NCBI GenBank assembly: GCA_947446925.1
Contig: CANFHU010000001.1
Location: 124,001-188,000 of the forward strand
Direction: 5' to 3'
Length of the DNA: 64,000 nt
DNA from: Flavobacteriia bacterium
GTDB lineage: Bacteria > Bacteroidota > Bacteroidia > Flavobacteriales_D > Crocinitomicaceae
Part shown: positions 11,259 to 41,806 of the stretch, piece after piece
Position numbering within the stretch: position 1 is the stretch's first letter
How the letters are laid out: each line of letters starts with the position of its first letter
Translations under genes and position numbers: made by a program
The notes under the pieces: model-generated
Seen by the model: the letters and a program-made list of their open reading frames with translations, nothing else
The model's database searches: none
What the model was told of the DNA's origin: nothing

Positions 11259-11310
11259 TTTCGATTTTTAGTAGGGATAGGGCATGCCCTATCCCTACTA
11301 AAAATCGAAA
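11259..11310. repeat. 52-bp perfect palindrome with GTAG...CTAC core (REP-like, copy 1)
   Basis: Every base from 11259 to 11284 pairs with 11310 to 11285. The central 28 bp (11271-11298), which starts GTAGGGAT and ends ATCCCTAC, is identical to 41426-41453 inside the RAYT gene. The outer 12-bp arms (TTTCGATTTTTA and its complement) are unlike those of the other copies. It lies 5 bases after the epimerase stop and about 100 bases from the converging MFS gene end, so it could also act as a transcription terminator. Confidence 0.9.
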
Positions 11311-18338: not shown

Positions 18339-18385
18339 AATAAACAACAAAGGGGATGCAAATTGCATCCCCTTTGTTGTTTATT
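18339..18385. terminator. Bidirectional intrinsic terminator (23-bp perfect stem)
   Basis: Arms 18339-18361 and 18363-18385 are exact inverted complements around one base, with a GC core (GGGGATGCAA / TTGCATCCCC) and A/T-rich outer ends that give a T-tract on either strand. It sits between the converging barrel gene (stop 18329) and lipoprotein gene (stop 18395). It is longer than needed for termination. Confidence 0.88.
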
Positions 18386-33821: not shown

Positions 33822-34606
33822 TGTCAGTTAAAGCAAAAAAACATTTAGGTCAACACTTTTTAGTGGACAAAAATGTAAGTAAACGTATTGCTCAACAATT
33901 TGGAGGTTTCAACGATTGTCGAAAAGTACTGGAAATAGGTCCAGGTATGGGCGCATTAACCGTCTTTTTATTAGAAGAGGAAAAAAATGATGTTTGGGCA
34001 ATGGATGTAGATCGCGATTCGATTGCATATTTACATGAGCACTATCCCCAATTAAAAGATAAAATCTTAGAAGCAGATTTTTTAAAAACGAATCTAGCTA
34101 CCTATTTCGGAAATGAACCATTCGCTGTTGTTGGGAACTTCCCTTACAACATTTCTTCACAAATCTTATTTCGCTGCTTAGAATACCGAAACCAAATCCC
34201 TGAAATTATGGGAATGTTTCAAAAAGAGGTGGCAGAACGAATCGCTGTAAAACCAGGTACAAAAACATATGGTATCATAAGTGTTTTATTACAAACCTTT
34301 TATGATATCACTTATTGTTTTACGGTAGATGAACACGTGTTCAATCCCCCACCAAAAGTAAAATCAGGCGTTATACGATTGACGAGAAATAATCGGGATA
34401 AATTACCTTGTGATGAAAAATTCTTTATACAAGTAGTAAAAGCATGTTTCAACCAACGTAGAAAAATGATTCGAAATTCGGTCAAACCATTTTTATTAGG
34501 AAATGTAGTAGACCACCGTTTTCTAGAAACGCGTCCTGAACAATTATCCGTAGATGATTTTATTGAATTGACATTATTATTAGAAGGGTTAAAACCAGTG
34601 GAATAA
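33821..34606 (+). CDS. rsmA: 16S rRNA (adenine1518/1519-N6)-dimethyltransferase
   Basis: A 261-residue enzyme (KsgA) that dimethylates two adenines near the 3' end of 16S rRNA late in small-subunit assembly. It shows KKHLGQHFLVD at the N-terminus, the SAM-binding VLEIGPGMGALT, AMDVDRD, and the catalytic N-F-P-Y-N-I-S (usually N-L-P-Y). C-terminal KACFNQRRKMIRN is characteristic. Length is normal. The stop codon lies at the edge of the palindrome shared with purN. Confidence 0.96.
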   Translation: MSVKAKKHLGQHFLVDKNVSKRIAQQFGGFNDCRKVLEIGPGMGALTVFLLEEEKNDVWAMDVDRDSIAYLHEHYPQLKDKILEADFLKTNLATYFGNEPFAVVGNFPYNISSQILFRCLEYRNQIPEIMGMFQKEVAERIAVKPGTKTYGIISVLLQTFYDITYCFTVDEHVFNPPPKVKSGVIRLTRNNRDKLPCDEKFFIQVVKACFNQRRKMIRNSVKPFLLGNVVDHRFLETRPEQLSVDDFIELTLLLEGLKPVE

Positions 34607-34656
34607 TTTTGGATATGTAGGGATGTAGCATACTACATCCCTACATATCCAAAATT
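34605..34656. repeat. 52-bp palindrome at the rsmA/purN convergence (REP-like, copy 3, diverged)
   Basis: Arms 34605-34628 and 34633-34656 are exact 24-base inverted complements around CATA. Within them GTAGGGAT (618-625) and ATCCCTAC (636-643) match the ends of the core in the other two copies; the centre differs. It overlaps the last two bases of the rsmA stop and carries the last codons and TAG stop of purN. It probably also acts as a bidirectional terminator. Confidence 0.85.
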
Positions 34657-41068: not shown

Positions 41069-41806
41069 ATGGCTACCTACTATAAAAACAAATATAGAAA
41101 TGAATCTATACGATTACAAAATTGGGATTATCGTTGGGATTCCTCCTATTTCATAACAATTTGTGCGAAAAAAAATTATTTTGGGGAAATACAAAACAAT
41201 AAAATGCATTTATCCCCGATTGGTGTTCTCGCAGATGTTTTTTGGTTCGAAATTAAAAATCACGCCAAAAATGTACTATTAGAATCATTTGTGGTAATGC
41301 CGAATCATATTCATGGTATAATTACACTAAATGGTGGTTGGATGGATGATAATTATATGGATGATGGGAATGTTGGGATGGGAAATTTTATAGGGAATGG
41401 TGATTCTGTCGGAAATGTTGATTCTGTAGGGATAGGGCATGCCCTATCCCTACAGAATCAGATCGTAAATCAACCCATATTCAAACAGAATCATACCCAA
41501 AATCACTCCCTACCCAAAAACAATGAATACAAACAAAATATAAATAATATCCCATGGGATACAAATAATAGAAAAACAATCGGTCAAAAACGATTTCAAA
41601 ACATTGGGAAAAATTCTATTTCATCCATCGTCGGGTCCTATAAATCTGCTGTGACAAAACATGCTAGACGTCTAGGTTTTGAATTTGAATGGCAAAAACT
41701 ATTTTATGAAAATAAAATACGGAATGAAGAATCTCACGACAACATTACAAATTATATTAAAAACAATATTGTAAACTGGGATAAAGATCGATTTTATTTT
41801 AAATAA
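41069..41806 (+). CDS. REP-associated Y1 transposase (RAYT / TnpA-REP)
   Basis: A 245-residue single-strand HUH transposase-like protein. The N-terminus (RNESIRLQNWDYRWDSSYFI, TICAKKN) and metal-binding H80-x-H82 in VVMPNHIHGII are typical; the catalytic tyrosine is Y191 in IVGSYKSAVTKHARR. RAYTs mobilise or spread short GTAG-marked palindromes rather than their own gene. Residues about 88-165 form a Gly/Asn/Asp-rich insert absent from the core fold; V120-Q129 are encoded by a palindrome identical to one at 11271-11298. The last 13 bases overlap batD, which converges on it. Confidence 0.9.
   Translation: MATYYKNKYRNESIRLQNWDYRWDSSYFITICAKKNYFGEIQNNKMHLSPIGVLADVFWFEIKNHAKNVLLESFVVMPNHIHGIITLNGGWMDDNYMDDGNVGMGNFIGNGDSVGNVDSVGIGHALSLQNQIVNQPIFKQNHTQNHSLPKNNEYKQNINNIPWDTNNRKTIGQKRFQNIGKNSISSIVGSYKSAVTKHARRLGFEFEWQKLFYENKIRNEESHDNITNYIKNNIVNWDKDRFYFK
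41419..41460. repeat. 42-bp perfect palindrome inside the RAYT coding sequence (REP-like, copy 2)
   Basis: Bases 41419-41439 pair exactly with 41460-41440. The central 28 bp (41426-41453; GTAGGGAT...ATCCCTAC) are identical to copy 1 at 11271-11298; the outer 7-base arms differ. It stays in frame, encoding VGIGHALSLQ between two DSV/QNQ flanks. GATTCTGT just left of the core recurs at 41402-41409, so the insert may have grown in steps. Confidence 0.9.

Follow-up and report, generated by a model that had tools for sequence, protein, structure and literature searches.

Double-foot GTAG REP elements with site-specific, perfectly paired outer arms in a genome of the Crocinitomicaceae

Palindromes and a RAYT gene in the analysed region

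We analysed a 64,000-nucleotide stretch of the genome of a Flavobacteriia bacterium of the family Crocinitomicaceae (hereafter, the window), in which three palindromes lie exactly where an initial annotation made from the sequence had placed them; all three are perfect inverted repeats, and no strand is assigned to any of their parts. Copy 1 consists of a left outer arm, TTTCGATTTTTA (11259-11270), a core, GTAGGGATAGGGCATGCCCTATCCCTAC (11271-11298), and a right outer arm (11299-11310) that is the perfect complement of the left one. Copy 2 (41419-41460) has its core at 41426-41453 between two arms of 7 bp each (41419-41425 and 41454-41460). Copy 3 is situated at the ksgA-purN junction: its left arm (34605-34616) begins within the ksgA stop codon, its core, GTAGGGATGTAGCATACTACATCCCTAC (34617-34644), supplies the purN stop codon through CTA/TAG, and its right arm (34645-34656), which pairs with the left one, encodes the final PurN residues E-I-L-D-M. 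The 28-nt core is identical in copies 1 and 2, whereas that of copy 3 differs in its interior and has only the tips GTAGGGAT and ATCCCTAC in common with them. The exact copy 1 core was found by pattern search at five further places in the genome. The initial annotation had described common tips enclosed by flanks that differ from site to site and yet pair perfectly, and this description was borne out, the arms of copies 1, 2 and 3 measuring 12, 7 and 12 bp, respectively. DNA folding gave z-scores of -11.4, -12.6 and -8.6 for the three palindromes, and searches of the window revealed no Rfam match and no tRNA.

Also in the window, between convergent genes (18339-18385), is a perfect 23-bp hairpin that has no GTAG tag. 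Its ortholog in genome G011 (L364) differs from it by paired changes, and a locus of genome G007 (L374) has the arms AATAAACAACAAAGG in common with it around a different centre.

The TnpAREP/RAYT system includes 'double-foot' GTAG REP elements, and the cores are of this type. They carry GT[AG]G at the 5' end of a perfect palindrome and the complement C[TC]AC at its 3' end, they are dispersed in the genome (9 copies with GTAGGGA tips and 23 with relaxed tags), and copy 2 lies in frame inside a tnpAREP gene. This gene (41069-41806, + strand) encodes a RAYT/TnpAREP-like HUH transposase with the motifs PNHIH, WQ and YIKNN, and copy 2 is inserted between the PNHIH (HUH) motif and the WQ/Tyr motifs. 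The protein matched NF047646 (E=7.8e-10) under the curated cut-off and Pfam Y1_Tnp below the cut-off. The profile of its family (A2) matched TnpArep of PDB 4er8 (E=2.8e-5), and the HUH, WQ and Tyr motifs are invariant in the A2 alignment, which identifies the protein as a RAYT/TnpAREP. To judge from the sequence, this RAYT is probably the cognate enzyme of the REPs. Several RAYT paralogs of the genus (L089-L110) likewise have a palindrome at this position, between the HUH and Tyr motifs, each from a family of its own.

The elements closely resemble those of TnpAREP subclass 2.4, for which the accessible text of Quentin et al. (2018, PMC6006769) describes double-foot REPs with 5' GTAG and 3' CTAC around a perfect stem, in-frame REPs within tnpAREP genes between the HUH and Tyr motifs, the protein motifs YIxNNP, WQ and NH[IFV]H, and hosts in Bacteroidetes and Cyanobacteria. 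A GTAG tag, a palindromic unit and an HUH tyrosine transposase are likewise features of GTAG REPs and RAYTs in general (Di Nocera 2013, PMC3733652; Corneloup 2021, PMC8266576, both in their accessible parts). Neither the REP type nor the presence of copies within the gene is new. However, the accessible description of subclass 2.4 contains no site-specific outer arms derived from flanks, whereas pairing here extends 7-13 bp past the foot. The classical GTAG is an unpaired, one-sided tag, and no inverted copying of flanks is described in the accessible parts of PMC3733652 and PMC8266576; the present elements differ in this respect as well.

Extent and distribution of the outer arms

Genome-wide counts were obtained by pattern searches, and a reversed control pattern gave no match in the 3.15-Mb source genome. 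All nine GTAGGGA-tip copies of this genome have paired arms (10, 12, 12, 7, 13, 12, 9, 11 and 12 bp). Left and right flanks taken from different copies paired over a mean of 0.64 bp and a maximum of 4 bp (n=144 pairs), and the arm length summed over the nine copies was 98, as compared with a maximum of 17 among 7337 derangements. Thus, when all genome copies are aligned on the core, a comparison that the initial annotation had proposed, the bases outside it pair far above chance, over at least 7 bp in every one of the nine. A sequencing fold-back artefact is disfavoured, because arms are identical in three separately assembled species (L009, L029 and L053).

The same-genus sample comprised 13 genomes and 46 distinct copies. 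The median arm length was 11 bp, and at least 7 paired bases were present in 37 of the 46 copies; cross-paired flanks reached 7 bp in 1.35% of cases, a figure in which orthologs are included. By position, the paired fraction was ~0.9 or more across most of positions 1-8, fell to 0.52 at position 12 and was at background from position 13. In arms of 3-10 bp, pairing from the first mismatch to position 12 was 0.33, equal to background, indicating that the arms end abruptly. The peak of exact matches at 12 bp raised the possibility of a fixed 12-bp arm length, which was rejected because short arms have no residual pairing up to 12 and copies in g4, a second genus of the family, reach 24 bp. We therefore regard the arm length as subject to a soft limit only.

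Arms also occur in further core families of the genus (GTAGGTAT, GTAGAGAC and others), where they are shorter on average; the GTAGAGAC copies within RAYT genes have none. Arms are mostly absent in g3 and g7, two further genera of the same family. In other taxa, which include cyanobacteria, spirochaetes and chloroflexi, 66 of 103 copies of the same cores have no paired base outside the core, and the six with at least 7 paired bases are all from Bacteroidota. At the foot of these cores CT/TT is preferred, mainly at one end, which would be the pattern if the enzyme determined one junction. Copies with non-complementary flanks, which the initial annotation had regarded as telling against its reading, do therefore exist, namely most cores of other taxa and the GTAGAGAC copies in RAYT genes, but none is found among the nine of the source genome. 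Since the same cores are mostly armless in other taxa, the arms are not part of the element: they lie outside the mobile unit and are specific to some host lineages, a lineage-dependent outcome and not a property of the core.

Long hairpins other than REPs are not in excess in the genus (~18 versus 19 per Mb); the arm effect is therefore tied to REPs, and the same comparison gave no sign that the host extends hairpins in general. An explanation by RAYT clade was examined with a tree, in which the pattern was not clean. Arms accompany several RAYT paralogs and are absent with related RAYTs in other hosts. They track host lineage, not one RAYT clade, a distribution that suggests a host factor no less than the enzyme.

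Orthologous sites and changes in the arms

Orthologous sites were collected across the genus, where orthologs are only ~75-95% identical, which makes the ancestral state of intergenic sequence uncertain and means that a deletion may lie behind some of the empty sites. The one clean case is L043 in genome G009, at the end of a gene that we take to be pdxJ from its translated sequence. Here the core is enclosed by GAATTGGT and ACCAATTC. The conserved coding end that all orthologs share forms the left arm, GAATTGGT; the right arm, ACCAATTC, is confined to G009, and the sequence beyond it resembles the original downstream sequence. The left arm being conserved coding sequence and the right arm being new, one flank has been copied in inverted form. 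The REP insertion at L043 also abolishes the normal stop codon and lengthens the C-terminus of PdxJ.

The initial annotation had suggested that one side of the target is copied in inverted form onto the other. This holds most clearly at L043, and four other sites are consistent with one old arm and one inverted copy. The conserved gene end TTT-TGA lies inside the left arm of L026 (G001), the right arm of L040 (G008), AAACAAAAAAAA, is already present in the empty G003 site (L191), and the empty flank at L049 resembles the right arm. At copy 3, the right arm encodes the PurN end in several species; because this arm is the PurN end and the core supplies the stop codon, the left arm is likely the inverted copy of the purN end. 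The suggestion found no such agreement at L052, L037 and L318, where the available empty sites offer no flank that matches the arms, and the empty sites of genus g4 revealed no further clear polarity. The ksgA-purN junction of G003 was rejected as a clean empty site, as its relatives hold older palindrome halves and it may be a deletion. The filled site at L023/L045 resembles a target duplication. In addition, comparison of L052 with L176 and L179 revealed direct repeats of ~15 bp flanking the element (ATATTATGATTTTTTT / ATATTATTATTTTT), similar to a target duplication or a deletion track.

Arms also change in a paired manner between species: orthologous arms differ at 47 paired and 43 one-sided positions, in comparisons that are not independent of one another. 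At L014/L025, the change GATACT/GATTCT affected the right arm together with every tandem left copy. The REP at L014, L025 and L157 is in frame in a coding gene other than RAYT, presumably for a glycosyltransferase according to our reading of the sequence, and in two species it is accompanied by tandem 27-bp half-copies that change in concert. Nested palindromes with an old half-core left outside the new one were found at L012, L024, L032 and L038/L050, and tandem copies of arm plus half-core at L007, L014, L017, L018 and L025.

A possible copying step and its alternatives

The explanation towards which we lean is that the 3' end of the REP hairpin is extended on the adjoining flank before re-joining, which would give flank-copied arms. 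The RAYT (TnpAREP) HUH transposase would place a double-foot REP beside a T-rich stretch, and the 5' side of the core would be joined to one flank; the perfect hairpin formed by the core would then bring the free 3' end (CTAC-OH) next to that flank. DNA synthesis from the CTAC-OH end would copy ~6-12 bases of the adjoining flank, and the extended end would be re-joined to the other side, yielding left flank - core - inverted copy of left flank - right flank. In later rounds at the hairpin, arms could be re-copied and nested or tandem half-copies added, both arms staying matched. We infer the hairpin-primed synthesis, the re-joining and the role of RAYT as the source of the free end from these sequence patterns. 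Copying at RAYT placement or re-nicking is favoured because long non-REP hairpins are not in excess and nearly all copies are armed. The abrupt arm ends, L043 and the sites that agree with it, the nested copies, the paired and concerted changes and the foot preference in other taxa also speak for the extension model. More tentatively, a hairpin held by the transposase may prime the copying of the target flank, in which case every insertion would write a short inverted copy of its own target. Several findings count against the extension model, namely the arms without a flank match (L052, L037 and L318), the target-duplication appearance of L023/L045, the armless GTAGAGAC copies in RAYT genes, the presence of arms with several RAYT paralogs and their absence with related RAYTs elsewhere, the divergence of the orthologs and the nearly equal numbers of paired and one-sided differences in the non-independent ortholog comparisons.

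Replication template switching remains a strong rival, although we consider it rather less probable. Ordinary switching at the hairpin (quasipalindrome correction) would make the arms after insertion, without the transposase, the REP acting only as a strong hairpin in a lineage prone to switching. The mechanism is established, and inverted repeats made or perfected by arm-to-arm copying, as described in the accessible parts of PMC8794818 and PMC7202029, account for paired substitutions such as those between orthologs. The nested and tandem half-copies, the concerted change at L014/L025, the paired changes in the non-REP hairpin at 18339-18385 and the presence in one host of arms with several REP families and RAYTs also agree with it. 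However, according to the same accessible parts, such switching normally mends an existing imperfect palindrome, whereas here long, unrelated arms flank a mobile core at nearly every copy. Nearly every GTAGGGA copy being armed, the arms would have to form at or soon after insertion; moreover, the same hairpins gain no arms in other hosts, and the genus has no surplus of long non-REP hairpins.

The other explanations appear considerably weaker. A long RNA hairpin at gene ends could be under selection that keeps or builds the pairing via compensatory mutations, and many copies indeed lie between convergent or consecutive genes and show paired changes; we nevertheless consider this improbable. 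The arms also occur inside coding genes (copy 2 and L014/L025), their ends are abrupt, and 8-12 matched bases at each unrelated site are implausible by point mutation. Furthermore, an intrinsic terminator has a G+C-rich stem followed by a U run, whereas the arms show the opposite arrangement, rich in U on the 5' side and in A on the 3' side, and such a terminator was accordingly rejected as an identity for the palindromes. Still less probable is that the mobile unit includes the arms and brought them along from a donor site. Although L052, L037 and L318 show no visible local source, no donor for their arms was seen among the fetched copies either, the left arm of L043 is host coding sequence, cross-paired flanks in the source genome match over at most 4 bp, and arms within one genome are by inspection mostly unrelated across sites, except for T-richness and an ATTCT end in several copies. 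Least probable of all, in our view, is the other proposal of the initial annotation, that insertion of the core is restricted to the centre of hairpins already present. Of the 12 empty orthologous sites, eleven, at seven loci, contain no hairpin >6 bp, and the ancestral site of L043 held a single coding arm. The exception, at the ksgA-purN junction of G009 (L082), is an 11-bp arms-only hairpin without a core (ATTTTTTGAATAATTCAAAAAAT), which loss of the core may have left behind. As a rule, therefore, the elements do not insert into existing hairpins. The comparison with empty sites that the initial annotation had called for spoke against targeting at most sites and made the ancestral arm visible at L043, but it did not account for the arms of L052, L037 and L318.

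The initial annotation had further held that such arms are not a standard RAYT outcome, and the accessible text of PMC3733652, PMC6006769 and PMC8266576 agrees. Full-text literature searches, whose coverage did not extend to subscription literature, found no description of flank-copied arms, and the accessible part of PMC8266576 describes REP dissemination as still poorly understood. Flank-derived arms next to every copy would serve as a molecular footprint of how the element was inserted or repaired, recording the position of the 3' end, the template and the extent of copying. Because the same element is armed in some hosts and armless in others, the arms offer a natural test between transposase-coupled synthesis and replication template switching. 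In addition, they would show how a mobile element can create long perfect hairpins, gene stop codons and C-terminal extensions in one step. If true, a copying step at insertion would be an outcome of transposition not described for HUH/Y1 elements.
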